Positions 7,823 through 32,360 of a stretch of DNA of 35,458 nucleotides are shown here, piece after piece. Source of the stretch: Candidatus Rifleibacteriota bacterium (lineage in GTDB: Bacteria; Muiribacteriota; Ozemobacteria; Ozemobacterales; Ozemobacteraceae). The position numbers and the translations under genes are program-made. Where the stretch lies: assembly GCA_012517355.1 (NCBI GenBank), contig JAAYVD010000124.1:1-35458 (forward strand), given 5' to 3'. The stretch's first letter is position 1. Each line of letters opens with the position of its first letter. Below the pieces are notes generated by a model. It was not told the DNA's origin and did not search any database. It saw only the letters and a program-made list of their open reading frames with translations.

Positions 7823-9178
7823 TCAAAGACGGTCCAGGATCTCCTGGCAGATGACGTTGATGTCGCGGGCGCCCATCACCAGGACCATGTCGCCCGACCG
7901 GGCCTGGGTGACGATGTCGGTGACGATGCGGCGCCGGTCGCCGTAGTAGTAGACGTTGGGGAAGCCGGGCCGCACTTCGTCGACCAGGTGCTGCGAGGAG
8001 ATGTCCTTCTCCACCGTGCCGCCCCCGTAGTAGATGTCGTCGAGGAACAGGAACTCGTCGGGGCGCAGCGACCGGAACACCCGCACCAGGTCGTCCCGCG
8101 TGAAGCGGGTGGGCCCGAACCCGTGCGGCTGGTAGACGATGAAGCGGCGGCTCGAGGTGCGCCGCGCCGTGGTGATGGCCGCCTCGATCTCGGCGGGGTT
8201 GTGCGCGAAGTCGTCGATGATGGTGACCCCCTGCGCCGTGCCCACCTTCTCGAACCGGCGCTTCATGCCGGGAAAGGCGCGCAGGGCGGCGGCCGTTTCC
8301 TCGAGCGGGATGCCCAGGAACAGGCCGATCGCCACCACGCCGAGGGCGTTGAGCACGTTGTGCTGTCCGGGCAGGCCCAGCGCGAACGGCACCCCGCGTA
8401 CCGTGAAGGTCGAGTGGTCGGGGGCGATCACCAGGTGGTCGGGATGCACGTCGCAAGTCGCGCCCAGCCCGTAGGTGGTCACCGGCCCGGTCAGCGCCGG
8501 CAGCAGTCCGGCGATGTGCGGGTCGTCGCCGTGGACGACCTTCATGCCTTTGGGGTCGGTCTGGTTGAGGTAGGTCGAGAACAGGGAAAGGAGCTCGTCG
8601 AGGGGCTTGTGGTCGCGCGAGATGTTCGTGAGCAGCGAGACGTAGGGGCGGTACTTGACGATCGAACCGTCCGACTCGTCGGCCTCGATCACGAAGTGCG
8701 GTCCCGTCCCGCGGAAGGCGTTGGTGTCGAGCCCCGAGATCACCCCGCCGATGGCGCAGGTCGGTTCCAGGCCGGCAAACTTCAGCAGCCAGGCGGCCAG
8801 GCCCGAGGTGGTCGTCTTGCCGGCCGTGCCGGCGATGGCGATGCCCAGTTGGGCGTTGAACAGCGAGGCCAGCAGGTCGGAACGCATGATCTCGCGCAGG
8901 CCCAGGCGGCGGGCGGCGACGATGTCGGGCACCTGGTCCTCGACGGCGGTCGACTTGACCACCACCACGTCGGCGGGGGCCAGGCGCCGCTCGCGCAGGA
9001 ACGCCTCGATGCCGGTGCCGTCCTGCGGATGGATCGGGATGCCCAGCGCCAGCAGCCGCCTGCAGTATTCCCCTTCGAGATTCCGGTCAGACCCGGCGAC
9101 GATGCCTCCCGCCGTGTGCAGGATCTTGGCGATGCCGCTCATGCCCATGCCGCCGATGCCGACGAAATATGCGTTCAT
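7823..9178 (-). CDS. MurC/Mpl-type Mur ligase with altered motifs
   Basis: A 451-aa cytosolic ligase of the Mur superfamily. The N-terminal UDP-sugar-binding domain begins FVGIGGMGMSGIAKIL, typical of MurC and Mpl. The ATPase P-loop is GTAGKTTT (117-124), where MurC and Mpl normally have GTHGKT; Ala119 replaces His. ADESDGS (166-172) and the LTNISRDHK segment are present. The C-terminal domain has DDFAHNP (322-328), closer to Mpl DDFAHHP than MurC DDYGHHP, then YQPHGFGPTRF. The reaction is expected to be ATP-dependent joining of an amino acid or peptide to UDP-MurNAc, but the motif changes and absence of neighbouring mur genes make strict MurC function uncertain. AGGAGG precedes the ATG. It is transcribed divergently from the cyclase genes. 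Confidence 0.88.
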   Translation of the reverse strand: MNAYFVGIGGMGMSGIAKILHTAGGIVAGSDRNLEGEYCRRLLALGIPIHPQDGTGIEAFLRERRLAPADVVVVKSTAVEDQVPDIVAARRLGLREIMRSDLLASLFNAQLGIAIAGTAGKTTTSGLAAWLLKFAGLEPTCAIGGVISGLDTNAFRGTGPHFVIEADESDGSIVKYRPYVSLLTNISRDHKPLDELLSLFSTYLNQTDPKGMKVVHGDDPHIAGLLPALTGPVTTYGLGATCDVHPDHLVIAPDHSTFTVRGVPFALGLPGQHNVLNALGVVAIGLFLGIPLEETAAALRAFPGMKRRFEKVGTAQGVTIIDDFAHNPAEIEAAITTARRTSSRRFIVYQPHGFGPTRFTRDDLVRVFRSLRPDEFLFLDDIYYGGGTVEKDISSQHLVDEVRPGFPNVYYYGDRRRIVTDIVTQARSGDMVLVMGARDINVICQEILDRL

Positions 9179-9422: not shown

Positions 9423-12400
9423 ATGCCCGTTTCGCGCGGGGAAGGAGGACCGGCCGGCCCGACCTCGAAAGGGCCTCCTCCAGCCCAGGCCGGGGAGCCC
9501 GAGACGGCCGGGTCGCGCCCGGCCGGGGGGCCCGCTTCCCCCGTGGCCGGGGGGGCGCCCCCCGCCTCGCTGGTGGCCGGTCTCGCCCTGTTGGTCTTCC
9601 TGCCCGTCCTGCTGGGCATCGGATTCGCCCGCGAGCGGCGCGAGTCCCGCGAGCGCCAGGACCACGAGGAGGCCGAGATCGCCCTGCAACGGGCCGCCCG
9701 CAAGATGGCCACCGCCGTCCAGCCGATGGCCGCGCTCGGCATGGCCCTGCGGCGGCTCGAACTGGAATGGGATTTCACCTACACCCCCCGGGGCGTCGCT
9801 TCCCTGGCCCGTCTCCTGCGCCGCCACCTGCCATGCGACCCCCGCCTCTACGTGTTCGACCCCGTCGGGCGCCTGCTGCTGCCGAGGCGTCCCTTCGCCC
9901 AGCGGGCCGAGCGCGAGAACCTCTGGCGGACCCTGATCGATCGCCGGCTGTCCGTCGACGATCACCCCGGGCCCGTGGCCGATGCCGCCGGCGACCCCTC
10001 CCGGCCGCCACGACGGGATCGGTCCCCCCGTGCCGACCGCCTTCCCCGTGCCGACCGCCCTCCCCGGACCGACCGCTCCCGCCGGGAAGCGGGACGCCGC
10101 CCGACGCTGGGCGACCACGCCCGCGCCGCCCGGGCGATGGCCCGCCTGTATGGCCCCTTCCTCGGCTTCAACGAACTCGACAAGAACCAGAATTTCGACA
10201 CGTTCTACGAGGACCGCCGCCAGGAACGGATCTTCCTCGCCGTGAACTTCAGCCGGGATCCGGGCCGTCCCGGATTGCCCGGCCACTTCCTCGAGGTGTG
10301 GGAAAGCCGCATCCCTCCTGCGTTCTTCGACCGCGAGATCCTCGCCCTCCGGCCCGACGAGGCGGACGGGGCGATCCTCTTCCGCGACGGGCAGGAGGCG
10401 GGCCGGTCGGGACTTCCCGCGCCCGCCTCGTGGCCCTCGCTGGCCCCCGGCCGGCTCCAGGCGACCGTCGACCACTTCTGGTTCCGCTACGATCCCGGTC
10501 CCGGCCGGATCCTGCTCCTGCATCGCGCCCGTTCCCACCTGGGAGGCCTCCGGCCACGCGACTGGCTGACGCTCGAGGCCCTGCTCTGTCTGTGCGGCGG
10601 CACGGCCGGCTGGTGGGTGGCCCGCCGCGTCGCCGATCCCGAGGGCTACCGCCTTCCCCTGCGCACCCAGATCCTCGGCGGTCTCCTGCTGGCCGCCTCC
10701 TTCCCCCTCGCCGGCCTGCTCTCGCTCGGCCTGAGCCGGGCCGCCGACATCGACACGCTGGTCCGCCAGGCCTTCCGGGCCCGCATGGCCGACCTGACCC
10801 GTGCCGTCGACCTCCACTTCCGCAACACCGTCGAGTCCTACCAGCGGGTGGCCCGACGGCAGGCCGCCGAGATCGAGGCCCGCCTCGCCGCCGGCCAACC
10901 GCTCCTTCCGGCGATGGACCGGTTCCAACCCTACCTGACCTCGGTGGTCCTCACCCTCGAGGACGTCCTGACCGTTCCCGATCGCCTGAAATACGGGCGG
11001 CGCGAGGTGGGCGACATCCTGCGCAAGGTCTTCTTGCTGATGTCGACCGACCTGCTCGAGGGCTTTCGCCCGGCCGGGCGACCGGGGAAGGGAAAGGTGC
11101 GGCTCGGCCTGCGGGACATGTTCGGGGAAGGGCATCCCCTGTTCGACCTGCCCAAGCGGATCGGCCGTCTCAACCGGGTGGCCTTCGGCACCATCAACCA
11201 TTTCGGCTACCACGAGTTCCTGCGCACGCCGCAGGGGCGCGTGCGCGGCCTGGCCTTCGCCTTCCTCGACTCCGGCACCCTGGCCCGCCGCTACCGCGAA
11301 TGGCTGGCCCGGCCCCGGTTCCTGGCCACCGACAGCCTGTTCTTCTTCTCGGGCATCTCCAGCAACGTCGCTCCCGGCTTTCTCAAGGAGTCCCGCGACC
11401 TGCGCGAGTTGCTGGGCCGGGTCCGGGATACCGGCGCCCCCGAGGAGCGGACGATCGAGGCGGCCGGGCAGCAATGGCTGGTCTGGGCCCGCTTCCCCCA
11501 GTTCTTCTACGAGTTCATGCTGGGGGCCGCGGTGCCGGTGACCGCCCTCTCCGGGCACCGCCAGGGCATCCTGGCCGGCCTCGCCCTGGGAGCCGGCGCG
11601 GGGCTGTGCGTGCTGCTGGCGGGGGGCGGGCTGCTGTTCCGCCGCATCCTGGCCCCGATCCGGACCCTGACCGAGGCCGGCCGCCGGATCGCCGGGGAGG
11701 GCCGGGCCACCGACCCGGCGGCCACCGACGGCTTCGATGCCCTGCCCGACCCGCTGACGGTCGAGACGGACGACGAGCTGGGCCGCCTGGCCGACTCGTT
11801 CAACGGCATGGTGACCGGCTTGCGCGAACGCGAGCGGATGCGGCGCTTTCTGTCCTCCTCGGCCTGGGAAGGGGCCGCCCGCCCCGACGAGGAGGCCGGC
11901 CGCCGCGAGGAGGCGGTGGTGCTGTTCTCCGACCTCCGGTCGTTCACCACCCTGTCCGAAACCCACCCGCCACAGGACGTGGTGGACATGCTCAACGACT
12001 ACTTCACCCTGATGGACCGGGCCATCAGGGCCGAAGGCGGCGACATCGACACGTTCATCGGCGACGCCATCGTCGCGGTCTTCCGTGACCAGGCCGACCG
12101 CTCCCCGGCGGTGGAACGGGCCGTGCAGGCCGCCATTGCCATGCGGCGGGCCCTGGCCCGCCTCAACCGCCGCCGTCGCGAACTCGGGCAGTTCGAGATC
12201 GAGAACGGCATCGGTCTGGAGTGGGGCCCCCTGGTCCTCGGCCGGGTCGGGGCGGCGGCGGGGCGCAGCGCGTTCACCGGCCTGGGGGCGGTCGTGGGGC
12301 GGGCGATGGAGCTGGAAGCCCTGAGCAAGCTCGGGCGCGCCAGCCGGGTCATCGTGTCGGAGGCGGTCGTCGGCCGCCTGGATGGAGGGTCCCCCGGCGG

Positions 12401-12542
12401 GGCGGGGAACGGGGGTTTCGTGTCTCCGTCGATGTCGGCAGGCGGGCCCTTCCAACCTGCTGCCGCCCGGATCGGTCGTCTGCCGCTCGCCGGGTCCCCC
12501 CGACCGGCCTGGGAGCTGGAGACAAAGGACGGTTCCGCATGA
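9423..12542 (+). CDS. Membrane sensor with HAMP and degenerate class III cyclase domain (cyclase 1)
   Basis: About 1039 aa if started at ATG 9423; GTG codons at 9303, 9366 and 9570 are alternatives and no ribosome-binding site decides. Layout: Pro-rich N-terminus, membrane segment ~50-70, first sensor region containing an Arg/Pro/Asp repeat, two membrane segments (~382-400 and ~415-435), second sensor region, membrane segment ~714-735, HAMP (conserved DELGRLADSFNGM), then a class III cyclase domain. Both metal Asp are present (Asp837 in LFSDLRSF, Asp881 in FIGDAI). The base-binding Lys is Thr877, the catalytic Asn is Gly959 and the transition-state Arg is Glu963, so a homodimer should be inactive. 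It resembles the metal-binding half of a cyclase pair. The stop overlaps the next start (ATGA). Confidence 0.85.
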   Translation: MPVSRGEGGPAGPTSKGPPPAQAGEPETAGSRPAGGPASPVAGGAPPASLVAGLALLVFLPVLLGIGFARERRESRERQDHEEAEIALQRAARKMATAVQPMAALGMALRRLELEWDFTYTPRGVASLARLLRRHLPCDPRLYVFDPVGRLLLPRRPFAQRAERENLWRTLIDRRLSVDDHPGPVADAAGDPSRPPRRDRSPRADRLPRADRPPRTDRSRREAGRRPTLGDHARAARAMARLYGPFLGFNELDKNQNFDTFYEDRRQERIFLAVNFSRDPGRPGLPGHFLEVWESRIPPAFFDREILALRPDEADGAILFRDGQEAGRSGLPAPASWPSLAPGRLQATVDHFWFRYDPGPGRILLLHRARSHLGGLRPRDWLTLEALLCLCGGTAGWWVARRVADPEGYRLPLRTQILGGLLLAASFPLAGLLSLGLSRAADIDTLVRQAFRARMADLTRAVDLHFRNTVESYQRVARRQAAEIEARLAAGQPLLPAMDRFQPYLTSVVLTLEDVLTVPDRLKYGRREVGDILRKVFLLMSTDLLEGFRPAGRPGKGKVRLGLRDMFGEGHPLFDLPKRIGRLNRVAFGTINHFGYHEFLRTPQGRVRGLAFAFLDSGTLARRYREWLARPRFLATDSLFFFSGISSNVAPGFLKESRDLRELLGRVRDTGAPEERTIEAAGQQWLVWARFPQFFYEFMLGAAVPVTALSGHRQGILAGLALGAGAGLCVLLAGGGLLFRRILAPIRTLTEAGRRIAGEGRATDPAATDGFDALPDPLTVETDDELGRLADSFNGMVTGLRERERMRRFLSSSAWEGAARPDEEAGRREEAVVLFSDLRSFTTLSETHPPQDVVDMLNDYFTLMDRAIRAEGGDIDTFIGDAIVAVFRDQADRSPAVERAVQAAIAMRRALARLNRRRRELGQFEIENGIGLEWGPLVLGRVGAAAGRSAFTGLGAVVGRAMELEALSKLGRASRVIVSEAVVGRLDGGSPGGAGNGGFVSPSMSAGGPFQPAAARIGRLPLAGSPRPAWELETKDGSA
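10025..10078 (+). repeat. Three 18-bp repeats inside cyclase 1
   Basis: Three consecutive 18-mers (10025-10042, 10043-10060, 10061-10078), the middle one TCCCCGTGCCGACCGCCC, encode the hexapeptides PRADRL, PRADRP and PRTDRS. They lie in the first sensor region and keep the frame. Probably a slippage-prone disordered linker. Confidence 0.75.
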
Positions 12543-15500
12543 CCGGCGGCCTCCGACGGGCGGGCACCCTCCCGCTTTCCCTCGCGCTGGGCCTTGCCGC
12601 CGCGCTCGCCATGGCCGGCCTGTTGTGGTGGTTCGCCGGGTACCAGGAGGAACTGGCCGCCCGGGAGCGGGGGGAGGCCGGCATCCGGTTGGGGCAGGCG
12701 GCGCGGCAGCTGATCGCCGCCGCCGCCCCCGAGGCGATCCTGGAGCGCACGCTGTCCCGCCAGTTCTACCACCTGAAGCCCGACCAGACCATCTACGCCA
12801 CCGCCTTCGACTGGATCGCCTGGTGCCGCTCCCTCCACGACGCCCTGTCCCGGTTCGTCCGGCCCGAGGCCGCCGACACCTTCCTGTTCTTCTGCTTCGA
12901 CCCCCGGGGGGAAGTGGCTTCCGTCGGGCAGCCCCTCCCCGCCGACCTGGCGGACGCCCGGACCTACTGGCGGGGCATGCGCTCCCACCTGCGCGAAGTC
13001 TGGCATCACCCGCAGGACCCCGGGTGGGAGACCCACCGCCGCGACGGGGAGCGGATCCTGCACCGGTGGCTGTTCCCCCTGGCCACCATCCAGGCGGTCT
13101 TCGAACTCGACCGGTTCCAGAAGGTGCTCAAGGATGGCGTGGGGAACCTGCTGTATGTCCTCTCCCTGTACGGCGAGGTTCCCGGCGTCAGTCCGCCCCA
13201 GGTCTTCGGCCTGTTCCTGCGCCTGCCGGCGGCCGCCCTCGACTGGGACGCGCTGGCGCGCACCGCCGTCGAGGACCGGCTCGACCGGCAGGGCGGGCCG
13301 GTCGCCATGGTCGTCGCCCCGCTGGCCGGGGAAGTCACGCTTCCCCCCGACCCGGGTCGTGCGGGGCCCGGGATGCCGGTTCCCGGCGCGGTCTGGGAAC
13401 CGGAACGGCCGACCCCCCCGCTCCCCCCTTTCGGGGACGGCCACCCCCCGTCCGGGCTGCCGCTTGTCCCCCCGGTCCGGGAACCGGGCCCGCCGGCCCG
13501 CCGGCCTCCCCCTGCCGGGGAGGTTCGCTGGCTGACCGGTCTGCCTCCCTGGCCGGCCGGTCGTCCGCCCGCGGTCACCGGCGAGGTGGAGCGCCAGGGC
13601 GACTGGTTCGTCGCGGCCTTTCCCCTGTTCCCGGGGCAACCCCACCGCCTGGTCCTGGGCAGTCCGGTCCCCCTTCTGGCCCGCACCCCTCCCTGGTGGC
13701 CGTCCTGGCGCTGGGGTCTGCTGGCCGGGGCCTGCCTGGCCGGCACCGGCCTGGGGGCGGCCCTGGCCCGCCCCGCTCTCCAGACCCTGCGGGTCCGCCT
13801 CCTGGTGCTGTTCCTGCTGGCCGCGGGGTGTCCGGCCGCCTTCTTCCTCCGCCTCGGGCTGGAGCGCTTCTCCACCTGGGAAACGGTCCAGCGGGTGGCC
13901 TGGGAGTCACGGTTGCAGCACCTGTTGGGCCTGCTCGACCAGCATTTCCGCTTCCGGGTGGAAGGCTTCCAGCTTCCGCTGAGCCGCCTGGCCCGTCGCC
14001 TGGAAGCCCTGCCCCCCGATCGTCCCCTCCGCCCGGATCACCTGGAGCGGCTGCACCGGCAGGCTCCCTCCGGGTTCGAACTGCAGTTCAACGACGTCGT
14101 CCGCGACGAGACCCATCTCTTCACCAGCCAGAAGGCCGCCCAGGACTCCCATCTCCGGTCCGGGTTCCTGCCCGGTCTCATCCGCGGGGTCTGGGACGAC
14201 ATCCTGCCGTTCCAGCCACGGGGGGAGCCTGCCGGCCAACCGCGCCGCGACAGGACCCGCCTCAAGGTCCAGGACTTCGTCGGGGAGGGGATCCCGTATC
14301 AGGCGATGTTCCTGTCACCCGGGAAGCTGGTCCAGACCATCCTGGCCGACCGCACCTTCCTCTCCTATTACGCCCCGGTCCGGACCCCCACCGGCCGCAT
14401 CCGCGGTTTCCTGTTCGGGGTCTCGGGCCTGGTCGGGACGACGCGCACGTTCCTGGCCTGGTTCGATCGGCGGCCCGACCGCCCCTACCCGGAATGCCTC
14501 CTCCACCAGGTCGCCCATTTCGGGTCCGTCCCGTTCCTCGGGTCGGCCTTCCCGCAGGCGGTCGGGCTCCTGCGGTTCGTCGAGGAGGGGCGCGGCGGCG
14601 CCTGCACGATCGGTCCCGCCCCTGACGGCGACCGCCTGATCGCCGCCAGGGCAACACGTTTTTTCAACGAGTACCAGGTGGTTGCCTCGGTCCGGACCGA
14701 CCTCCTGCGCCGGGATGCCGACCGCCTGTTCCTCCAGCTCTGCCTGGGGGCGGCCGGGGCGGCGGGATTGGCGCTCGTGCTCGCCCTCGTCCTCTGGCGG
14801 CGGCTGGTCATCCCCATCCGGTGCCTGCAGGAGCGGGCGGTCCAGGTGGCGGCCGGCCGGCTCGATGCCCGGCTGCCCGTCAACTCTCCTGACGAATTGG
14901 GGCACCTGGCCTTCTCCTTCAACGAGATGACCGACGGCCTCCTGCAGCGGGAGCGGATCCGCCGGTTCATCTCCGACGAGGTCTGGCATGCCACCGCCGC
15001 CGGCGGGGGGGAGGCGGTCACCCGGACCCGCCTGGCGGTGCTGTTCTCCGACATCCGCGGCTTCACCACGCTGTCCGAGACCCATCCCGCGCCCGCGATC
15101 GTCGACCTGCTGAACGACTATTTCACCGAGGTCGACCGCATCATCCGCTTCCACGGGGGGACGATCGACAAGTTCATCGGCGACGCCGTCCAGGCCTTCT
15201 TCAAGGAGGTCCCGGGCCTGCCCGATCCGGGGGTCAGGGCGGCCCGGGCGGGGCTGCGGCTGCGGGAATGGGTCGCCGCCCTCGACCGGCTCCGCGTGCG
15301 CCGGAATCTGTTCCCCATCGAGACCGGGGTCGGCGTCTGCGTCGGCACCGGCATCATCGGCCGGGTCGGGGCGGCCGCCGGGCGCAGCGATGTGACCGTG
15401 ATCGGGCCCATCGTCCAGGAGGCGGCACGCCTGGAAGCCCTGAGCAAGTTCGGAAGCCTGTCGCGCGTGCTCGTGGGCGGCGACATCGCGGCCATCCGGG

Positions 15501-15562
15501 CGGAACTGGCCCTCGAACCCCGCGACCACGAAGGCTCGACGGGCTGGGAGGTGCGCGCGTGA
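12539..15562 (+). CDS. Membrane sensor with HAMP and class III cyclase domain (cyclase 2)
   Basis: 1007 aa, overlapping cyclase 1 by ATGA, hence translationally coupled. Same architecture: membrane segment ~12-33, a first sensor region with a long Pro-rich insertion (~265-350), membrane segments ~388-410 and ~415-438, second sensor region, membrane segment ~728-750, HAMP (PDELGHLAFSFNEM), cyclase. The catalytic domain keeps both metal Asp (Asp838 in LFSDIRGF, Asp882 in FIGDAV), Lys878 and Arg964. The usual GDTVN reads GPIVQ, so the adenine-contacting Asp is Pro957 and the catalytic Asn is Gln960. Activity is uncertain: reduced, altered or dependent on a partner. Confidence 0.9.
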   Translation: MTGGLRRAGTLPLSLALGLAAALAMAGLLWWFAGYQEELAARERGEAGIRLGQAARQLIAAAAPEAILERTLSRQFYHLKPDQTIYATAFDWIAWCRSLHDALSRFVRPEAADTFLFFCFDPRGEVASVGQPLPADLADARTYWRGMRSHLREVWHHPQDPGWETHRRDGERILHRWLFPLATIQAVFELDRFQKVLKDGVGNLLYVLSLYGEVPGVSPPQVFGLFLRLPAAALDWDALARTAVEDRLDRQGGPVAMVVAPLAGEVTLPPDPGRAGPGMPVPGAVWEPERPTPPLPPFGDGHPPSGLPLVPPVREPGPPARRPPPAGEVRWLTGLPPWPAGRPPAVTGEVERQGDWFVAAFPLFPGQPHRLVLGSPVPLLARTPPWWPSWRWGLLAGACLAGTGLGAALARPALQTLRVRLLVLFLLAAGCPAAFFLRLGLERFSTWETVQRVAWESRLQHLLGLLDQHFRFRVEGFQLPLSRLARRLEALPPDRPLRPDHLERLHRQAPSGFELQFNDVVRDETHLFTSQKAAQDSHLRSGFLPGLIRGVWDDILPFQPRGEPAGQPRRDRTRLKVQDFVGEGIPYQAMFLSPGKLVQTILADRTFLSYYAPVRTPTGRIRGFLFGVSGLVGTTRTFLAWFDRRPDRPYPECLLHQVAHFGSVPFLGSAFPQAVGLLRFVEEGRGGACTIGPAPDGDRLIAARATRFFNEYQVVASVRTDLLRRDADRLFLQLCLGAAGAAGLALVLALVLWRRLVIPIRCLQERAVQVAAGRLDARLPVNSPDELGHLAFSFNEMTDGLLQRERIRRFISDEVWHATAAGGGEAVTRTRLAVLFSDIRGFTTLSETHPAPAIVDLLNDYFTEVDRIIRFHGGTIDKFIGDAVQAFFKEVPGLPDPGVRAARAGLRLREWVAALDRLRVRRNLFPIETGVGVCVGTGIIGRVGAAAGRSDVTVIGPIVQEAARLEALSKFGSLSRVLVGGDIAAIRAELALEPRDHEGSTGWEVRA

Positions 15563-15610
15563 CGCGGGGCGGGGGGCGGCCATCCGCGCCCGGGGCCGGT
15601 CGTCGGGGCA

Positions 15611-15619
15611 TGGTAGAAT
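15611..15619 (+). promoter_or_regulatory. Candidate extended -10 promoter of cyclase 3
   Basis: TGGTAGAAT is a strong extended -10 (TAGAAT at 15614-15619) in the 98-bp gap before cyclase 3, which would let it be transcribed apart from cyclases 1 and 2. No convincing -35 lies at the expected distance. Confidence 0.4.
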
Positions 15620-15660
15620 CTCCCCGGTCGAACGGCTCCCGCAACGCCTGAAAGGATCTC

Positions 15661-18528
15661 ATGGAACGCCCATTCACCGTCGAAGCCCGGCCCCAGCGCC
15701 TGTGGTTCGTCGTCGCGGTCCTCGCCCTGGTGCTGGGCGGCGGGCTGGGGGTGCGGAGTTTCTCCGGCTGGCTCGACCGCACCGAGGCCGAGACCTTCGA
15801 CGAATGCCGGGTCACCCTGTCGAATGCCGTTCTGGCCCTGGCCGAGCGGTTCAACCGCCCCCGCTGGATGCGGCAACGGGTCGAACCCCTGCTCCGCCGG
15901 CAGGCGGGGCGGCGGTTCGATGCCGGCCTGGCCCGCCTCCTCGGCCGCCAGCTCGTACGGCGGTTCCCCGACGCCCTGGTCTATGCCTTCGACCCCAAGG
16001 GCCGGCTGGTCTTCCAGCGGCACCAGGAACCGGTGCGGACCCGCGAGATGGTGTGGCAGGGCATCCTGGCCAGCCTGCGCCAGGAGGCCGGCGGGGACGA
16101 GGCCGAGCGGCGGCTCGATTCCGCCACGCGGATCTGCCGCAGCCTGTTCGGCACCATCACTTCGCTGACCGACCTGTCGGGGCCCGACGGACTGCCGCAA
16201 CCCTTCCTCAACCGCGACCGGGGGTGGCTGTCCTGGACCATCCCGCAGGAGATGGTCACCGGCACCGGCTCCGCGCCTGCCGGGCTCGGGGGCTTCTGGC
16301 TGCTGGTCGATCCCGAAACGCTGCCGGCCGCCCGGGTCGGCGAGCACACCCTGCGTCAGATGGACCCCCGCCTCGACCTGGCCGCCGTCGTCCTCGCCAC
16401 GGGGAAAGGCGGCCTGGTGGAGGCCCGCCGCGGGGTCGGCCTGCTGCCGCGCAGCGTCCTGCGCCGGGTCCTGGCCAACGTCACCCAGGTCCGGAACCCG
16501 CACGGGCTCTGGATGGCCCGCTACATCCCCGGCGAGAACGGGCGCTACCTGGTGGCCGGGATCCGGTCGGCCGCCCTGCGGGGATTCCTCGGCCGGCATC
16601 GCGGGCTCTGGCTGGGGATGATCCTCCTCCTGCTGGTGGCGCTGGTGGCCCTGGCCTGGCGGGCCTGGTGGCGCGGGGAGCCTCTCGGCTGGAACCTGAA
16701 GACCCAGGTGGTGGTCCTGTTCGTCCTGACCGCCGTCCTGCCGCTGGTGATGCTGGTCGTCTTCGGCCGCGAACGGGCCCGCGACCTCGGCCGGCTCGAG
16801 CGCAACCGGTGGGAGGAGCGGCTGCAGGACACCCTCAACACCGTCGACCTGACCTACGGCGACTACCTGCGGAACCAGGACGCCGCCCTGCGCGGCATCG
16901 AGCGCCAGTTGCAGGAGCGGCTGCCCACCGCCACCGATCCCGCTTCCCTCCTCGAGGAGCTGTGCGGGGAACGCCGCCGGTTCGAGGTGCTGGTCCTGGA
17001 GGCGTCGGGCCGGGCGACCCGGCTCAATCGGGGAGTGGCCTCGCCCCAGCGCGACAACGACGAGTTCCGCAAGATCGTCTCCCAGTTCCTCGTCCGCCTC
17101 CTGGCCGCCCAGGGCTCCCCCGTCCCCCGCGCCTACAGCGACAAGACTCCCCTGCTGAAGGACGACGAGCTCGAGCGCCTGTTGAACAACTTCTACCGCA
17201 CCCGCGGGGAGTTCAACCGCATGCGGGTGGGGAAGCGCCAGATCCTGCAGCGGGCCGAACTGCTGGCCGCGCCCGGAACCGGGGTGACCGCCGTGGTCAG
17301 CTGGATCTTCGACGAGACCGAGTTCGCCCGCCCCTTCGTGCAGGAGGTCCTGGCCCGGGCGGCCGCCGGAAAATACGGCCAGATCGACATCGCCATGGTC
17401 GGCGAGGACGGCCGCCTCTACCCCGAGGCGCGGGGCCGGCCGGTCGAACTTCTCGACATCGCCCATCGCGTGGCCACCTTCCGCACCAGCGAGGTCTCGG
17501 ACATCACGTTGGACGGCAGACCCCTGCTGGCGGCCGGCTTCTCTCCCGTCAAACTGGGCGGCTACCAGTTGGTCGGGCTCCTCGATGCCTCCCTGCTCAC
17601 CCGCGAGCGGGAGACCCTGACCCTCATCCTGTGGCTCATGGTCGGCTGGTCCCTGGCCTGGATGATCGGCTGCGCCCTGTTCCTCTCCCGGCGGCTGGTC
17701 GGCCAGGTCACCGGCCTGCGCGACTTCGTCGAGGAGATCTCGCTCGGCCGCTACGGGGCCCGGGCGGCGGTCACCTCCCGGGACGAGCTCGGGCAGCTGG
17801 CGGGGACCTTCAACGCCATGGCCGAGAAACTCGAACACGGCCAACGCCTGCGCCGGTTCGTCTCGGAAAAGGTCGTCGACGAGGTGAAGAAGGATGACCG
17901 CATCAGCCTGGCCCTGACCGGTTCCCGCCTCGAGGTCGCCGTGCTGTTCTCCCATCTCCACCATTTCGACGCCCTGCTCGAGGCGGTTCCCCCCGACCGG
18001 CTGATCGGCCTGCTCAACGCCTACTTCTCCCGGCTGGACCCCGTCATCCGCGCCCATGGCGGAGTCATCGACAAGCTGATCGGCGACGCCATCATGGCCG
18101 TCTTCGAACCCGTCGCGGGCGCCGACCACCCCGCCCTGCGCGCCGCCCGCGCCGCGGCCGGACTCCTGGCCGAGCAGGAGGCCCTCAACCGGGAACGGGC
18201 CTCCACTGGCGGGGCTCCCCTGCGCACCGACGTCGGCGTCCATTTCGGGGCCGTCATCTCCGGCAAGGTCGGTTCCCGCGAAGGCCGCATCGACTACACC
18301 GTCATCGGCGACACGGTGAACACCGCCGCCCGGCTCAGCTCCGCCGCCGCCGCCCGGCCCCGCCCCGCCGTCCTGGTCTCGGGGTCGGTGGCGGCCCACC
18401 TCGGCGCCGATCTCGCGCTCGCGCCGCTCGAGCCCATGGCCCTGAAAGGCAAGCGCGCCGTGGTCGAGGTGTTCGAACTGGTCCTCTCCTATTCCCCTTG
18501 TCCCGGGGGTTCGGTCGAGAAGAAGTAG
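15661..18528 (+). CDS. Membrane sensor with HAMP and class III cyclase domain lacking one metal Asp (cyclase 3)
   Basis: 955 aa from ATG 15661, preceded by AAAGGATCTC. Layout as in its two neighbours: membrane segment ~13-33, first sensor region, membrane segments ~311-333 and ~345-367, second sensor region (Cache-like in layout, ~370-650), membrane segment ~650-673, HAMP (RDELGQLAGTFNAM), cyclase. The substrate-binding half is canonical: Lys805 in IDKLIGDA, GDTVNTAAR with Asp884, Asn887 and Arg891. The first metal-binding Asp is replaced by His765 (LFSHLHHF, codon CAT at 17953). A homodimer should be impaired, whereas a heterodimer with cyclase 1 or 2 could rebuild a full site. The 3' end overlaps the convergent lipoprotein gene by 40 bp. 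Confidence 0.92.
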   Translation: MERPFTVEARPQRLWFVVAVLALVLGGGLGVRSFSGWLDRTEAETFDECRVTLSNAVLALAERFNRPRWMRQRVEPLLRRQAGRRFDAGLARLLGRQLVRRFPDALVYAFDPKGRLVFQRHQEPVRTREMVWQGILASLRQEAGGDEAERRLDSATRICRSLFGTITSLTDLSGPDGLPQPFLNRDRGWLSWTIPQEMVTGTGSAPAGLGGFWLLVDPETLPAARVGEHTLRQMDPRLDLAAVVLATGKGGLVEARRGVGLLPRSVLRRVLANVTQVRNPHGLWMARYIPGENGRYLVAGIRSAALRGFLGRHRGLWLGMILLLLVALVALAWRAWWRGEPLGWNLKTQVVVLFVLTAVLPLVMLVVFGRERARDLGRLERNRWEERLQDTLNTVDLTYGDYLRNQDAALRGIERQLQERLPTATDPASLLEELCGERRRFEVLVLEASGRATRLNRGVASPQRDNDEFRKIVSQFLVRLLAAQGSPVPRAYSDKTPLLKDDELERLLNNFYRTRGEFNRMRVGKRQILQRAELLAAPGTGVTAVVSWIFDETEFARPFVQEVLARAAAGKYGQIDIAMVGEDGRLYPEARGRPVELLDIAHRVATFRTSEVSDITLDGRPLLAAGFSPVKLGGYQLVGLLDASLLTRERETLTLILWLMVGWSLAWMIGCALFLSRRLVGQVTGLRDFVEEISLGRYGARAAVTSRDELGQLAGTFNAMAEKLEHGQRLRRFVSEKVVDEVKKDDRISLALTGSRLEVAVLFSHLHHFDALLEAVPPDRLIGLLNAYFSRLDPVIRAHGGVIDKLIGDAIMAVFEPVAGADHPALRAARAAAGLLAEQEALNRERASTGGAPLRTDVGVHFGAVISGKVGSREGRIDYTVIGDTVNTAARLSSAAAARPRPAVLVSGSVAAHLGADLALAPLEPMALKGKRAVVEVFELVLSYSPCPGGSVEKK

Positions 18529-25725: not shown

Positions 25726-26325
25726 ATGAGCAGCTTGACCCAGCGGAAGAACTATTTCATCGCCAAGGGCATGCAAAGCAAGTTCGCCGGGACGATCCTG
25801 TTGCTGGTGTTTTTGATCACCGTCATCACCGCCTGCAACATCTACGTCCTCGGTTCGTTCTTCATGCAGACCCGCGCCACCCTGACCGAGAGCCAGAGCA
25901 CCGAGAGCCTGATGCGGCTCTTCATCCTGGACCTCTGGCCCCGGCTCCTGCTCCTGGTGCTGGTCAACGTGATCATCGTCTTCATCGTCAGCATCATGTA
26001 CTCCCACCAGTTCGCCGGGCCGGCGTTCAAGCTCGAGAAGAGCATCCAGCGCATCGCCCGCGGTGACCTGACCTTCGAGATCCACCTGCGCAAGAACGAC
26101 AGCCTCAAAGAGGTGGCGGCCGCCATCAACCAGATGCTGTCACGCTTCCGCGACACCCTGGCGCAGGCTCGCACCCTGAGCGACGACATCGCCGCCAAGC
26201 TGGCCACCCTCGGCAACGACGAGAAGTTCGCCCAGCTCGCCAAGAGCGCCCAGTCGCTGAAAGACCAGATCGACCAGTTCAAGATCACCCGCGACGACGA
26301 AGAGGGGACCTCCTCCAAGAGCTGA
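25726..26325 (+). CDS. Two-pass membrane protein with HAMP domain
   Basis: 199 aa. Membrane segments at ~22-47 and ~71-95 flank a short (~25-residue) extracytoplasmic loop; a HAMP-like segment follows (~95-145, with FKLEKSIQRIARGDL and NDSLKEVAAAINQM), then a helical tail (~145-190) ending in acidic and Ser residues. No kinase, cyclase or chemotaxis output domain is present, so it could relay a signal by protein contact or be a stand-alone adaptor (inference). Expressed from its own strong promoter with a GGGGAGAGGC ribosome-binding site and followed by a hairpin terminator. Confidence 0.88.
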   Translation: MSSLTQRKNYFIAKGMQSKFAGTILLLVFLITVITACNIYVLGSFFMQTRATLTESQSTESLMRLFILDLWPRLLLLVLVNVIIVFIVSIMYSHQFAGPAFKLEKSIQRIARGDLTFEIHLRKNDSLKEVAAAINQMLSRFRDTLAQARTLSDDIAAKLATLGNDEKFAQLAKSAQSLKDQIDQFKITRDDEEGTSSKS

Positions 26326-26467: not shown

Positions 26468-28801
26468 GTGAACCAGGACCGGAGACCGGATGGATCGGGG
26501 ACGAGATGGTTCGGGCATACCCGGAAGGGATCGCCACCCGAGGACTGGCAGCCTCTCCAGGATCACTTGCGGAATGTCGCGAGCCTGGCCGGGAGTCTCG
26601 CGAGAGACGCTCGGCCGGGCGATGAGGGTTTCCAGCAGGCCGCACGCTGGGCTGGGTTGCTACACGACCTGGGTAAGTACAACCCCGCGTTCCAGGACAT
26701 GTTGCGGGCGGCGGTGGCAGGGAATCGTTGCCGGAAGGTCAAACACGCCGTCCATGGCGCATCGCTGTTGCTCGAATGGGAAGCCCGCGAAGCCGCCATG
26801 GCGGTTTTGGGTCACCACGCGGGATTGTGTGCCGCCTCGAGACTGATCGATGCTTGTGGAACTGCCCGGAAGGACGCCGGGGTATTCCTGGAGTCCGCCC
26901 GTTCGGAAAACCTCCTTCCCGCCGAAGGCCCGTCTTTCTCCCGGGCCGCTCTCCGCGATCCTCCAGCCCGCCTCGCGTTCGATGTCCGGTGCCGGATGCT
27001 CCTCAGCCTCCTGGTCGACGCCGACCGCCTGGATACGGCTGCCGCGACTGGCTCGACAGTTCCGGTGTGGCCCGCTCTTCCTGCCCAGTCTTTGCTGAAC
27101 AGACTGCTCGAGGCCATCGAAGCCAAGGCTGAGGAGGTCCGGGTCGAAGCGGTCCGTCTTTCACGGAAGAAGATCCTGGAAGGGTGTCTTGCCGCGGCTT
27201 CCGTTCCTGAGAGGCTCCTGTCTCTGACTGTCCCCACCGGTGGGGGCAAGACCTTTGCCTCGATGGCCTTTGCCCTGCGCCGGATGGCGATGGCCCAGGC
27301 GGAAAACCGCACCGATTCCCCACGTCGGATCATCGTCGTGATTCCCTTCCTTTCGATCATCGAGCAGAATGCCGCGGTGCTCCGGCAAGCTCTGGGCGGC
27401 AACATCGTGTTCGAGCATCACTCGGGCGATCCCGCAGGACTCGTCAGGAGCCATGCCGGTGATCGGACGGTCTTCCTCCCCGAGCCCGAAGAGGATGAAG
27501 AGGACCTGGGAGATCATGGCCGCAAGGTCGCCTCGGAGAACTGGGGTCCCCGGATCATCGTCACCACTTCAGTGCGCTTCTTTGATTCCCTGTTCTCCAA
27601 CCATCCTTCCGACCTCCGTCGGCTTCACAACGTCGCCTGCTCCATCGTCATCCTGGACGAGGTGCAGACCCTGCCTCGCTCCTTCCTGGCCCCCGCCCTG
27701 TCGATGATGAAAAGTCTCGCCGAAGACTGGGGAACCCACTTTCTCTTTTGCACCGCGACCCAACCCGCCTTCGAAAAGGGGCCCGGGGGAGGGAACCCGA
27801 TGGGGGAGACCGATCAACGGTGGGAACCGGGAACGATCCGCCCCCTCCTCGATCCGGTCTGCGAACGTGTTTTGTTCCAGGATCTGCAAAGGACCGTCGT
27901 TTCCTGGCCGGCTCCCGACGAGCGTTGGTCATGGAAACGGGTGGCTGGGGAAATGACTCGGGAAGCCCGCTCTCTGTGCATCGTCAACACCAAAGCGGAT
28001 GCCGGCCGTCTGTATGATCTTCTTCGGGAGTGCGGACTCAACGGCTTGTACCATCTGTCCACGCGCATGTGCCCGCAGCACAGACTGGAAATGATCGACA
28101 GGATCAAGGCCCGGCTGCTCAGTCCGGGAGACCCCTGTAGGGTGGTGAGCACCCAACTGATCGAGGCAGGCGTCGACCTCGACTTTCCCGTCGTCTTCCG
28201 TGCCTTGGGGCCCCTCGATGCCATTGCCCAAGCCGCCGGTCGCTGCGACCGGGAAGGTAAACGGACCTGTGCCATGAACCGGCCCGCCGGGAGAGTGGTC
28301 GTCTTCGATCCCGAGGACGGGGGCCTGCCTCCGGGAGTCTACTCCGAGGCCACCGATATCACGCGGGGTTTGATCCGGACCGGCCGGGCTTCGATCCACG
28401 ACCCCGAGGTGATCGGGGCCTACTTCCGCGAGTTGTATGGCGGGGGCCAGGATTCGAATGACATCCAGATCCTTCGGTCACAACTCGATTTCCCCGAGGT
28501 GGCCCGCCGGTTTCATCTGATCGACGACAGGACCAGGGCCGTGTTCGTTCCCTATGACCAGTCCGCCCAGGATGGCATCGCCGCCCTGATGGAAGCCGGG
28601 ACTTTTCTTCCGGAGATCGTGAGCCGGTTGCGGCGATACCAGGTCGGCTTGTATCCCGGCGAGTTCGCCCGGGCCGAGGAGGAAGGTGCCATCTATCGGA
28701 TATGGGAGGGTGGGGAGATCTGGGCTTGCCGCCCGAGCTGTTATTCGCAGGAAAGGGGCCTCCGCCTGGAGCGCCCGGCCGCAGAGGAATTCATCATCTG
28801 A
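26468..28801 (+). CDS. cas3: Cas3 HD nuclease-helicase, type I-C
   Basis: 777 aa, the usual fused form. The N-terminal HD nuclease has His33, His66-Asp67 (LLHDLGK), His93/His96, His116-His117 (GHHAG) and Asp184/Asp186, expected to bind metals and cut single-stranded DNA. The superfamily 2 helicase has Walker A TGGGKT (257-262), DEVQ box (397-400), TATQ (429-432), motif V around STQLIEAGVDLDF (561-573) and motif VI QAAGRCDREG (588-597). It degrades target DNA after recruitment by the Cascade complex encoded downstream. The start is GTG at 26468 after GAGAGGGAC. First gene of the operon, 46 bp before cas5c. Confidence 0.97.
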   Translation: MNQDRRPDGSGTRWFGHTRKGSPPEDWQPLQDHLRNVASLAGSLARDARPGDEGFQQAARWAGLLHDLGKYNPAFQDMLRAAVAGNRCRKVKHAVHGASLLLEWEAREAAMAVLGHHAGLCAASRLIDACGTARKDAGVFLESARSENLLPAEGPSFSRAALRDPPARLAFDVRCRMLLSLLVDADRLDTAAATGSTVPVWPALPAQSLLNRLLEAIEAKAEEVRVEAVRLSRKKILEGCLAAASVPERLLSLTVPTGGGKTFASMAFALRRMAMAQAENRTDSPRRIIVVIPFLSIIEQNAAVLRQALGGNIVFEHHSGDPAGLVRSHAGDRTVFLPEPEEDEEDLGDHGRKVASENWGPRIIVTTSVRFFDSLFSNHPSDLRRLHNVACSIVILDEVQTLPRSFLAPALSMMKSLAEDWGTHFLFCTATQPAFEKGPGGGNPMGETDQRWEPGTIRPLLDPVCERVLFQDLQRTVVSWPAPDERWSWKRVAGEMTREARSLCIVNTKADAGRLYDLLRECGLNGLYHLSTRMCPQHRLEMIDRIKARLLSPGDPCRVVSTQLIEAGVDLDFPVVFRALGPLDAIAQAAGRCDREGKRTCAMNRPAGRVVVFDPEDGGLPPGVYSEATDITRGLIRTGRASIHDPEVIGAYFRELYGGGQDSNDIQILRSQLDFPEVARRFHLIDDRTRAVFVPYDQSAQDGIAALMEAGTFLPEIVSRLRRYQVGLYPGEFARAEEEGAIYRIWEGGEIWACRPSCYSQERGLRLERPAAEEFII

Positions 28802-28847
28802 GATAGGAGCTGTCTCGAATGTGGTTTGCGCCCAAGGGAGGACCGAC

Positions 28848-29555
28848 ATGAGCAATAGCGTTCGCGTGCGGGTTTCCGGGGAGTTCGCCTGCTTCAGCCG
28901 CCCCGAGTGCAAGGTGGAACGGGTATCCTACGAGGTCATGACGCCATCAGCCGCTCGCGGGGTTCTCGATGCGATTCTCTGGAAACCGGAGTTCCGGTGG
29001 AACATCCGTCGGATCAAAGTCCTGAAGCCGATCAGGTTCATCGCGCTCAAACGCAACGAGATCCAGAGCAAGGTGGTTCCCAGTGCCGTCCAGGCCTGGG
29101 CCCGTCACCCCGCCGACTACGAGCCTCAGGCGGCGGGCGCGGGCTCGTCTGAAGCTACCCCCCGAAACACCCTGGCCCTTCGGGACGGGGCCTGGATCAT
29201 CGAGGCGGAACCGCTCCTCTTCGACGCGACAGGGGACAATACTCCGATGAAGTATGTTTCGATGTTTCAGCGCCGTGTCGAAAAAGGCCAGTGCTTCACA
29301 CAGCCGAGCCTCGGGTGCCGGGAGTTTCCCGCTCGGTTTGAGCCCCCGATCGAGGGAGAGGAAGCCATTGGGGAAACCCGCGACCTGGGAATGATGCTCT
29401 ACGACATCATCTTTCCCGGGCTCCGCAAAGGTCCACACCGCCCGGTGTTCTTTCCCGCCCGTCTCGAGTCGGGAGTTCTCGATACCCGGGTCGAGCAAGT
29501 CCTGGCCGAAGAAGGAGTCCGCAAGGAGGTGTTGGCATGTTCATACAGGCGTTAG
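28848..29555 (+). CDS. cas5c: Cas5c (Cas5d), type I-C Cascade subunit
   Basis: 235 aa from the ATG at 28848, preceded by AAGGGAGGAC. The family hallmarks are an N-terminal RRM-like strand (VRVRVSGEFACFSRPE), the block DAILWKPEFRWNIRRIKVLKPI and a following KRNEI. In type I-C systems this protein, not Cas6, cuts the pre-crRNA at the repeat hairpin and then holds the 5' handle. The position usually Tyr in the IYWKP motif is Leu44 here, and the stretch around 110-116 (ALRDGAW) differs from the Lys-His pair I recall for Bacillus halodurans Cas5d; see findings. The last 19 bp overlap cas8c. Confidence 0.96.
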   Translation: MSNSVRVRVSGEFACFSRPECKVERVSYEVMTPSAARGVLDAILWKPEFRWNIRRIKVLKPIRFIALKRNEIQSKVVPSAVQAWARHPADYEPQAAGAGSSEATPRNTLALRDGAWIIEAEPLLFDATGDNTPMKYVSMFQRRVEKGQCFTQPSLGCREFPARFEPPIEGEEAIGETRDLGMMLYDIIFPGLRKGPHRPVFFPARLESGVLDTRVEQVLAEEGVRKEVLACSYRR

Positions 29556-31435
29556 CGGCTTACGCCGACACCTATCTGGCCGATCAGCTCGAAGACCCCG
29601 CCTTCGAATCGAAGCCAGTTCCCTACTGGGTCGTGATCTCGCCGGATGGCCGGTTCCAGGAGATCCGCGAGCAGAACGAGGAAAAGATCGTCGGCAAGAA
29701 AAAGGTGGTCGTTCCCAGATCCCTTCTCGTTCCAAAGTCGCCGGTGAACCGCAACAGCGGTGTGCATCCTCTCCTGGGTTGCGACGCGATCCAATACCTG
29801 TTTGGTCCTTGCCTTCCGTCCTGGACCAAACCTGGCGAGGAGGCCAAGCATCGGGGGCACCATTCGGGTTTCGTCGCTCTGATGGAAAAGATGGCCGGGG
29901 AGACGGCTGACCCGGGATTGAAAACGTGTGTCCGGTTCCTGAAGGACGAAAGCCAGCTCGAGCTGGCCAGGAAGGAGCTCGCCGACAAGAAAGCCAAGGG
30001 CGGAGCCCTGGTCGCCATGGCTCCTGCCCTTCCATCCGCGGGTGAGCCTCCCCAGGCCGTTCCAGTCATCCAACGGGAGGCTGTCCGCCAAGCGTGGCGG
30101 GACCATTTCCACCGGCACTTTGCGGACCGGCACGAGAAGGGGGGGGCCGGAGTCTGCCTGATCAGCGGGAAGACGGGCCCATTGGCGGTCACCCACGAGC
30201 CGGTCAAAGGGACCTCCAACATCGGAGGCCAGGCTTCCGGGGTCCGGTTGATGTCCTTCGACAAGGGCGCTTTTGAATCCTACGGCTGGGAACGGAATCT
30301 CAACAGCCCGGTCAGCCCCGATCGGGCGACCGCTTATGTTCTGGCTTTGAATGACCTCTTGACACCAGGACAACACCGTCGGGGCCGGACGGCGACAACC
30401 CTTCTCCGTACCCGGAGCGATTATGCGGGGATGGCTTTCCTCTATTGGACTCGCGACCCGGACGATCTCGACCCGTTCCAGGCGATCACCGACAAAGCCG
30501 CTGCCCTGTTCGAAGCCCTCTGGAAGGGTAATGCGTCTGCCCTGGCGGCCATTCCTGCCAACGAGTTCTACCTGGTGGCGGTGTCGGGAAACGGCGGGCG
30601 ACTCGTGGTCCGCGACTGGCTGACGGAGTCGTTGGCGGGGATCCTCGCTCGCATCAGGAGCTGGTTCGATGATCTCAGGATGATCCCGGTCATCTCGGAT
30701 GGCGAAGACCTGCCTCCGCCAACCTTGTTCGAACTTTTGCGGGTTCTGACGCCTGGGCGGGTCAAACCCCAGGATATCGGCAAGGAGCCTACCCATTCCG
30801 TGCGGGTTCTTGCCTTCGTCCGGAGGGCCTTTCGCGGGGCCCCCCTCGGTCGGTCCATCCTGGCCGCCGCCCTGGGCCGTCTGCGCGTGGAAACCGGGAC
30901 CCGCCGCCTCGATTCCCATCGTCTGGGTTTGATCCGTCTCTGCGTAAACGACCTGACCGACGGCCTCATGAAAGGAGGGCTCCGAATGCCCATCTCCCTC
31001 GATTCCCGCCTCCGTCACCCGGCGTACCTGTGCGGACGTCTGCTCGCCATCTACGATGGTCTCCAGTTCCAGGCCCAGGGGGACCTGAACGTCACGGTGA
31101 CGGACCGCTTCTATGGCATGGCGATGACCAACCCCCGGCTCGCCTTTCCCAAGCTCGAGATTCTTAGCCGGGCCCACCTGAAGAAGCTTCGGAAGAACAA
31201 GCCTGCGGCACATCATGCCATCGAAAGTCGCCTTCACGAGATCATCTCCCTGCTGACCGAAGGGGATCCGGTCTTTCCGGCGAACCTGAGTCTCGAGGAC
31301 CAGGGCCGCTTCGCCATCGGATTCCACCATCAGAAAGCCGAGGATCTCCAACGCATCCGGGAGGCGAAAAGCTCCACTTCCGCACCGCCTGCCCGGAATC
31401 ACTCCGACGAACCCTCTTCCCTGACCGGAAAATGA
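29537..31435 (+). CDS. cas8c: Cas8c (Csd1), large subunit of type I-C Cascade
   Basis: 632 aa, normal size for the family. It begins MFIQALAAYADTYLADQLED, as Csd1 proteins do, and carries the conserved central block with VCLISGKTGPLAVTHEPVKG followed by GAFESYGWERNLNSPVS. The large subunit recognises the PAM and helps open target DNA. It overlaps cas5c by 19 bp and has its own AAGGAGGTG ribosome-binding site. The C-terminal 149 residues can also be made separately from an internal start as Cas11c. Confidence 0.96.
   Translation: MFIQALAAYADTYLADQLEDPAFESKPVPYWVVISPDGRFQEIREQNEEKIVGKKKVVVPRSLLVPKSPVNRNSGVHPLLGCDAIQYLFGPCLPSWTKPGEEAKHRGHHSGFVALMEKMAGETADPGLKTCVRFLKDESQLELARKELADKKAKGGALVAMAPALPSAGEPPQAVPVIQREAVRQAWRDHFHRHFADRHEKGGAGVCLISGKTGPLAVTHEPVKGTSNIGGQASGVRLMSFDKGAFESYGWERNLNSPVSPDRATAYVLALNDLLTPGQHRRGRTATTLLRTRSDYAGMAFLYWTRDPDDLDPFQAITDKAAALFEALWKGNASALAAIPANEFYLVAVSGNGGRLVVRDWLTESLAGILARIRSWFDDLRMIPVISDGEDLPPPTLFELLRVLTPGRVKPQDIGKEPTHSVRVLAFVRRAFRGAPLGRSILAAALGRLRVETGTRRLDSHRLGLIRLCVNDLTDGLMKGGLRMPISLDSRLRHPAYLCGRLLAIYDGLQFQAQGDLNVTVTDRFYGMAMTNPRLAFPKLEILSRAHLKKLRKNKPAAHHAIESRLHEIISLLTEGDPVFPANLSLEDQGRFAIGFHHQKAEDLQRIREAKSSTSAPPARNHSDEPSSLTGK
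30986..31435 (+). CDS. cas11c: Cas11c small subunit from internal start within cas8c
   Basis: ATG at 30986 is in frame with cas8c (codon 484) and is preceded by AAAGGAGGG ending 7 bp upstream (30971-30979), a stronger ribosome-binding site than that of most genes here. The product would be 149 aa beginning MPISLDSRLRHPAYLCGRLL. In type I-C systems the small subunit is known to be made by independent translation of the 3' part of cas8c, and position and size agree. No separate cas11 gene exists in the operon. Expression is inferred from sequence. Confidence 0.8.
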   Translation: MPISLDSRLRHPAYLCGRLLAIYDGLQFQAQGDLNVTVTDRFYGMAMTNPRLAFPKLEILSRAHLKKLRKNKPAAHHAIESRLHEIISLLTEGDPVFPANLSLEDQGRFAIGFHHQKAEDLQRIREAKSSTSAPPARNHSDEPSSLTGK

Positions 31436-31451
31436 GAGAAAGGATCCAGAA

Positions 31452-32360
31452 ATGACTGCTTCATTCGTCAACAATCGGTACGATTTCGTCTACCTTTTCG
31501 ATGTACAGGACGGGAACCCGAACGGGGATCCCGACTTGGCCAACACGCCCCGGTTCGATCCCGAGACGTTCCAGGGATTGGTTTCCGATGTCTGTCTCAA
31601 GCGGAAGATCCGGGACTGGGTGTTCGCAAAAAAGTCGGAATCGGGGAAACCCCAAGCGGGGTATGATGTGTTTGTCCTGCAGGGGCACTCGCTCGAGAGC
31701 CGGCAGAAGATGCCCTACGATCATTTGAAGATTCCGCCGAAAACCGATGACCGGGGAAAGATCGCCGAAGCCCGGAACTGGATGTGCGCCAACTTCTTCG
31801 ACGTGCGGGCTTTCGGGGCGGTGATGAGCACCACCGATTTCAACTGCGGGCAGGTCCGGGGGCCGGTCCAGATCACCTTCGCCCGGTCGATCGACCGGAT
31901 CCTTTCTTCGGAACATGGCATCACCCGGGTGGCCTACACCAAAGAGGAGAAGAAAGCCTCTACCACGGCTTCAACGGAAATGGGAAACAAGCATACGGTC
32001 GCCTATGGGCTCTATCGGGCGCATGGGTTCGTCAACGCCCACCTGGCTGCCCCTCCGAACGGTACAGGATTTCACGATGGTGATCTGGCGCTGCTGTGGA
32101 GTGCCCTGACCAACATGTTCGACCTCGATCACTCCGCCGCTCGCGGGCTGATGGCGGCCCGTCGGCTGATTGTCTTCAAGCACGCTTCCGCTTTGGGCGA
32201 GGCTCCCGCACATCGTTTGTTCGACCTGGTGACCGTCCGTCGGAAGGAAGGAATTGAATCCCCCAGGGCCTTCGGCGACTATCAGGTGACCCCCATCGAT
32301 GAAATCCGCAAGGGGGTGGCTGCGGCCTTTCCCCAGGTTGAAGTCCTGGACCTGATCTGA
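31452..32360 (+). CDS. cas7c: Cas7c (Csd2), backbone subunit of type I-C Cascade
   Basis: 302 aa. It opens with the family strand YDFVYLFDVQDGNPNGDPD and contains GLVSDVCLKRKIRDWV, FDVRAFGAVMSTTDFNCGQVRGPVQ-type residues (read in shorter blocks, e.g. VRAFGAVM and GQVRGPVQITF) and the conserved RRLIVFKHASALGEAPAHRLFD region near the end, seen as VFKHASALGEAPAH. Multiple copies coat the crRNA. AAAGGATCC precedes the ATG. Its stop overlaps the cas4 start (TGATG). Confidence 0.97.
   Translation: MTASFVNNRYDFVYLFDVQDGNPNGDPDLANTPRFDPETFQGLVSDVCLKRKIRDWVFAKKSESGKPQAGYDVFVLQGHSLESRQKMPYDHLKIPPKTDDRGKIAEARNWMCANFFDVRAFGAVMSTTDFNCGQVRGPVQITFARSIDRILSSEHGITRVAYTKEEKKASTTASTEMGNKHTVAYGLYRAHGFVNAHLAAPPNGTGFHDGDLALLWSALTNMFDLDHSAARGLMAARRLIVFKHASALGEAPAHRLFDLVTVRRKEGIESPRAFGDYQVTPIDEIRKGVAAAFPQVEVLDLI

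Follow-up and report, generated by a model that had tools for sequence, protein, structure and literature searches.

A locus of three adjacent genes, cyc1, cyc2 and cyc3, is predicted from its sequence to encode the subunits of an obligate C1/C2 heterodimeric class III adenylyl cyclase receptor, a reading to which a probability of about 0.86 is assigned. The locus was analysed within a 35,458-nucleotide stretch of DNA (designated here as the window), which belongs to a 7.1 Mb Candidatus Riflebacteria genome (G000:C20). Class III active sites are formed at the dimer interface, where one subunit provides the metals and the other the base-binding and transition-state residues. The pairing of cyc1 with cyc3 as a C1/C2-like heterodimer, proposed in an earlier note on this DNA, is strongly supported at the sequence level by a complementary residue split in 28/28 tandem loci of the genome, in 71 pairs when its relatives are included and in 12 gene fusions.

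Three receptor cyclases with incomplete catalytic sets

The gene cyc1 (9423..12542, + strand) encodes a C1-type receptor cyclase of 1039 aa (Pfam HAMP and Guanylate_cyc), cyc2 (12539..15562, +) a second C1-type receptor cyclase and cyc3 (15661..18528, +) a C2-type receptor cyclase of 955 aa, the latter two also being identified by Pfam and by their residue sets. The halves in the window are therefore three separate genes and not one polypeptide; the ATG of cyc2 overlaps the stop codon of cyc1 as ATGA, and a gap of 98 bp separates cyc2 from cyc3. In all three proteins, a HAMP domain lies directly N-terminal of the cyclase domain, both being above the Pfam cut-offs. The HAMP domains (PF00672, all +) were located at 11634..11828 in cyc1 (E=5e-11), 14792..14944 in cyc2 (E=2.6e-12) and 17680..17835 in cyc3 (E=2.2e-9). 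The C1-type cyclase domain of cyc1 (11898..12383, +) was assigned by Pfam, residues and tree position, the C1-lineage domain of cyc2 (15029..15451, +) by Pfam and residues together with its grouping with cyc1 and the C1 domain of locus C155, and the C2-type domain of cyc3 (17932..18465, +) by Pfam and residues. The PF00211 scores of cyc1, cyc2 and cyc3 were 54.7, 42.2 and 70 bits, respectively, compared with a Pfam cut-off of 21.9.

Six catalytic positions were read from the alignment in the order first metal Asp (Me1), Lys, second metal Asp (Me2), Thr, Asn and Arg, and the full homodimer-type set was found to be absent from each protein (cyc1 DTDTGE, cyc2 DKDTQR and cyc3 HKDTNR). Both metal aspartates are retained in cyc1 (D837 at 11931-11933 and D881 at 12063-12065), with Lys replaced by T877, Asn by G959 and Arg by E963. 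In cyc2, numbered from the Met at 12539, D838, K878, D882, T953 and R964 are retained and Asn is replaced by Q960, while cyc3 retains K805, D809, T880, N887 and R891 and carries H765 (17953-17955) in place of the first metal Asp. All residues named for the three cyclases in the earlier note (e.g. D837, Gln960 and H765) were found at the numbers given there. However, D884 of cyc3 and P957 of cyc2, which it had listed for the base partner of Lys, do not occupy that position. The partner is the base-contacting Thr of the '[YFV]TxxG' stretch, which is present in all three proteins (T951, T953 and T880 in cyc1, cyc2 and cyc3, respectively). The Lys of the class IIIb Lys/Thr base pair is represented by K878 in cyc2 and K805 in cyc3, and is lost in cyc1.

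Hydropathy analysis indicated three to four TM segments per half and periplasmic regions of ~300-380 aa. For the layout with two sensors that had been described for all three proteins, the four TM segments of cyc3 are in agreement, whereas only three strong peaks each were called for cyc1 and cyc2 at the hydropathy threshold used. The AlphaFold2 model of the cyc3 sensor was of medium quality (mean pLDDT 60), with values of mostly 70-90 in the membrane-proximal (second) sensor region (16741..17640, +; residues ~361-430 and 510-660). Foldseek matches of this model to solved structures, at E about 1e-5, included many double-CACHE ligand-binding domains of chemoreceptors, and Pfam profiles returned no CACHE match in cyc1, cyc2 or cyc3. 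Judged from the model, the window sensors look dCACHE-like.

Complementary partners in the genome and its relatives

Every cyclase-bearing site identified in this genome was retrieved and its domains were counted. The genome contains 88 class III cyclase domains, 57 of which are held in 28 tandem loci (12 two-domain polypeptides, 15 gene pairs and the three-gene set of the window). At the six aligned positions, every tandem locus exhibited the complementary split: in the C1-type partner, both metal aspartates are present but Asn, Arg or both are gone, frequently along with Lys, and the C2-type partner has Lys, Thr, Asn and Arg but is missing a metal Asp. A full residue set was present in none of the 57 paired domains, compared with 28 of the 31 unpaired ones (Fisher 6e-20); residue readings in two tables match for 86 of the 88 domains, the other two having shifted start coordinates and being unmatched. 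An apparent first metal Asp in the C2 domains of C7 and C94 was rejected as spurious, as the domain start is unalignable and the motif absent; a profile alignment places Gly at this position in C7. The C1/C2-like split that the earlier note had described is borne out at the window, but it is not special to this locus; given its recurrence throughout the genome, chance can be excluded as the source of the window's residue losses.

The 12 fused twins carry both halves in one ORF of 1632-2681 aa, within which the layout of the single genes (TM, sensor, TM-TM, sensor, TM, HAMP, cyclase) occurs twice, so that the fused proteins correspond to gene pairs if joined. The AlphaFold2 prediction for a C1-C2 segment of a fused twin, built from a three-row alignment, had a pLDDT of only 35; single-domain rows added to this alignment mapped to the C2 half. 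Gene order was shown to vary, with the C2 gene preceding the C1 gene in L051 (G000:C160) and L022 (G000:C181:35201/38205). A lone C2-type cyclase (GKDTNR) is encoded by an 809 aa ORF at L041 (G000:C112:23829-26255), with no C1-type domain found adjoining it; any partner would be encoded elsewhere, unlinked to this gene.

Tandem and fused loci were furthermore drawn from 12 related genomes and from the Riflebacteria contigs of the genome collection. The final count, covering this and the related genomes and excluding near-duplicate neighbouring twins of L191, was 71 pairs, which share ancestry and do not represent 71 independent events. With partner roles assigned by the Lys/Asn/Arg half only, the C1 metal positions were Asp in 70/70 readable cases for Me1 and in 71/71 for Me2, and the C1 Asn and Arg positions were replaced by many different residues. 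The C2 partners retained Lys in 70/70 readable cases, Asn and Arg in 71/71 each and Thr in 70/71. Their Me1 residue was Gly in 29 cases, His in 15 and Ala in 7, with others in the remainder and Asp only once (L209), where the second metal Asp is lost instead. The composite site was complete in 69 of the 71 pairs; the sequences of the other two are truncated where the residues in question would lie. Relatives in which each paralog retains all catalytic residues, which the earlier note had held to speak against such a pairing, were not observed (0/71); neither a self-sufficient partner with the full set (0/71) nor a pair with the same half lost in both partners (0) was found. Conversely, the 75 domains located outside tandem loci in the same scan were nearly all canonical, with few exceptions, and no complementarity was detected in tandem cyclases of Burkholderia, Desulfosarcina and Stappia (three control pairs from other phyla).

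Several pairs display additional features. His at the first metal position, found in 15 of the 71 C2 domains (e.g. H765 of cyc3, L187, L192, L199 and L211), is recurrent and conserved, suggesting that the residue has some function and is not just the mark of a lost Asp. In L184-L186 (G013, a more distant Riflebacteria family), the C2 partners appear to lack the start of the cyclase domain, which bears the metal Asp, and to retain Thr, Asn and Arg. Locus L191 (G003:C152:12001-32000) contains three fused twin cyclases of ~2140 aa each in a row, indicating a recent tandem amplification of whole twins. Two proteins of 1550 and 1431 aa in one related genome (L195, 1493-6142, - strand; L215, 1920-6212, - strand) consist of two N-terminal cyclase domains followed by AAA_16 and TPR, the domain layout of mammalian soluble adenylyl cyclase; the residue sets of L195 are complementary (DKDLRA/-KQTNR), and L215 is only partly readable.

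Separate histories of the C1 and C2 lineages

When the catalytic columns were removed before tree building, a single clade (support 100/99) took in 23 C2 domains, and the C1 domains grouped together (86/75; a core of 23 at 100/93) in subgroups that mirror those of C2. The C1 and C2 distance matrices were correlated (Mantel r=0.69), with none of 20000 permutations reaching as high a value, and a 184-domain tree required 6 label changes for C1 and 7 for C2, compared with 58.9 and 57.0 for shuffled labels. The C1 and C2 domains are separate, mirror-image lineages.

The nearest relatives of the window locus, based on the C2-type domain, belong to Candidatus Riflebacteria, Candidatus Ozemobacter among them. 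Within the tree, cyc2 clusters with cyc1 and the C1 domain of C155 (99/83), and cyc3 with the C2 domain of C155, a sister locus made up of a C1/C2 pair alone, with no counterpart of cyc2. From sequence, the three window genes are accordingly best explained as a putative C1/C2 pair with a duplicated C1 gene. An in-between status of cyc2 is refuted by its tree position as a second C1-type paralog, which provides two candidate C1 partners for cyc3. Three further genomes of the family were found to encode orthologs of cyc3 (53, 47 and 33 % identity), each with a C1-type gene directly upstream (3/3), and both readable orthologs carry His at the first metal position (L177, HKDTNR; L178, HKETNR). The orthology of cyc1 in these relatives is poorly resolved because the contigs end at the locus.

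Predicted mechanism, alternatives and known cyclases

In the proposed mechanism, cyc3 would act as the C2 subunit, contributing Lys and Thr for adenine and Asn and Arg for the transition state, and cyc1, or alternatively cyc2, as the C1 subunit that supplies both metal-binding aspartates. A C1-C2 dimer would possess one complete and one empty site, and C1-C1 or C2-C2 dimers none, such that the single composite site is expected to form only upon pairing of a C1 with a C2 chain. Every chain would bring its own HAMP relay and a pair of periplasmic sensors, probably of the dCACHE type; the output of the composite site would accordingly reflect the state of both receptors, and two inputs may be integrated there. 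The Lys/Thr base pair points to ATP as the substrate and cAMP as the presumed product, and cyc1 and cyc2 may compete for, or alternate on, cyc3. The assignment is least secure for cyc2, in which Asn is the only residue lost: the natural cyclase Ma1120 has Ala at this position and is still active (PMC4215837), so that cyc2 may also be active by itself. The genome also encodes 24 cNMP-binding domains, which are possible readers of a cyclic nucleotide signal.

A different assignment of roles, in which cyc2 is an active homodimer modulated by catalytically dead cyc1 and cyc3 as regulatory subunits, appears unlikely. It draws on the retention of both Asp, Lys, Thr and Arg in cyc2 and on the activity of Ma1120. 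However, the sister pair at C155 has no cyc2-like third gene and the fused twins need no third chain; furthermore, Lys, Asn and Arg are invariant in the C2 partners of the 71 pairs, and a dead subunit would not need them. Less probable still is that the composite site is present but that both halves serve mainly as ligand-binding, non-catalytic signalling dimers, e.g. as nucleotide sensors. Catalysis is predicted here from sequence, and several C2 domains appear to lack the beginning of the fold (the G013 pairs L184-L186); yet the conservation of the C2 Asn and Arg and of both C1 metal aspartates is expected for catalysis and not for binding alone, and the cNMP-binding domains are available to read a cyclic nucleotide. 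Neutral decay of tandem paralogs into pseudo-cyclases with coincidental complementarity is hardly credible: many residues are indeed lost, as might be expected of large paralog families, which often decay, but the kept residues are invariant exactly where a composite site needs them while the lost ones vary freely, in no pair is one and the same half missing from both partners, and random assignment of loss types would render all 28 pairs mixed with a probability of 3.5e-8 (shared ancestry ignored).

The C1/C2 heterodimer that is favoured here resembles the mammalian transmembrane adenylyl cyclases (ADCY1-9, class IIIa pseudoheterodimers), in which C1 provides the metals and C2 the Lys, its base partner, Asn and Arg; in the 12 fused loci, the likeness extends to a single chain that contains both halves, each preceded by a membrane module. 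In contrast to the mammalian enzymes (6 TM with short loops and a Lys/Asp base pair), the window halves are separate genes with ~4 TM per half, large periplasmic sensors, HAMP and a Lys/Thr pair. Because TM number, base residue and gene organization differ, the window proteins are not members of the mammalian family, although by residue split they would be C1/C2-like. Their closest solved relatives are bacterial (CyaB, CyaC and bPAC-type, E 1e-13 to 1e-24), with mammalian VC1 far behind (2e-4 for cyc3); convergence is therefore the most likely source of the likeness between their residue sets and those of mammalian adenylyl cyclases.

Bacterial HAMP-linked class IIIb adenylyl cyclases (e.g. 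Rv3645) share the membrane anchor, HAMP, class III domain and Lys/Thr pair. However, the bacterial class III enzymes that have been described form homodimers in which both sites are identical, which has been regarded as a fundamental difference from mammals (PMC4821796), whereas neither partner holds a full set here. Soluble guanylyl cyclase alpha/beta is likewise a heterodimer of two gene products with one good catalytic site, but has guanine-specific residues and a haem sensor instead of Lys/Thr and periplasmic dCACHE-like sensors. An engineered parallel is provided by Rv1625c, for which fusions carrying the metal-site mutation D300A or the Arg mutation R376A are inactive singly and regain activity upon co-expression, yielding a ligand-regulated dimer (PMC4821796). 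The tandem loci look like a natural version of this state, which in Rv1625c is a laboratory construct and here occurs in dozens of paralogs. In the open-licence literature, no report of a natural bacterial C1/C2 heterodimer was found, the arrangement being known there for bacteria only as a laboratory construct, and the first duplication-fusion to a C1/C2 enzyme has been placed in an early eukaryote (PMC9552081). The cyclase expansion of Trichomonas was considered as a precedent and rejected, since it has one cyclase domain per protein.

It seems moderately likely that a mammalian-type C1/C2 cyclase arose independently in one bacterial lineage and multiplied there until each genome encoded dozens of two-receptor enzymes, of which some are fused, others split and others again supplied with alternative C1 partners; together they would amount to a large two-input cAMP sensing network. 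With ~28 natural C1/C2 sets per genome, as fusions and gene pairs, such a lineage would demonstrate more than one evolutionary origin of the asymmetric enzyme. Its genetically simple set of paralogs would also lend itself to the question of what selects for asymmetry (one site and not two, two inputs, or an unused second pocket that serves regulation), and to tests of how partner specificity arises when dozens of paralogs share a cell.

Other genes in the window include a Mur ligase (MurC/Mpl-like) gene (7823-9178, -; probable start Met at 9178), which is divergent from cyc1, and a gene for a small protein of 199 aa (25726-26325, +) that carries a HAMP domain but lacks any recognised output domain. 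A type I-C CRISPR-Cas set (26468-33151, +) comprises cas3, cas5, cas8c (Csd1), cas7 and cas4.
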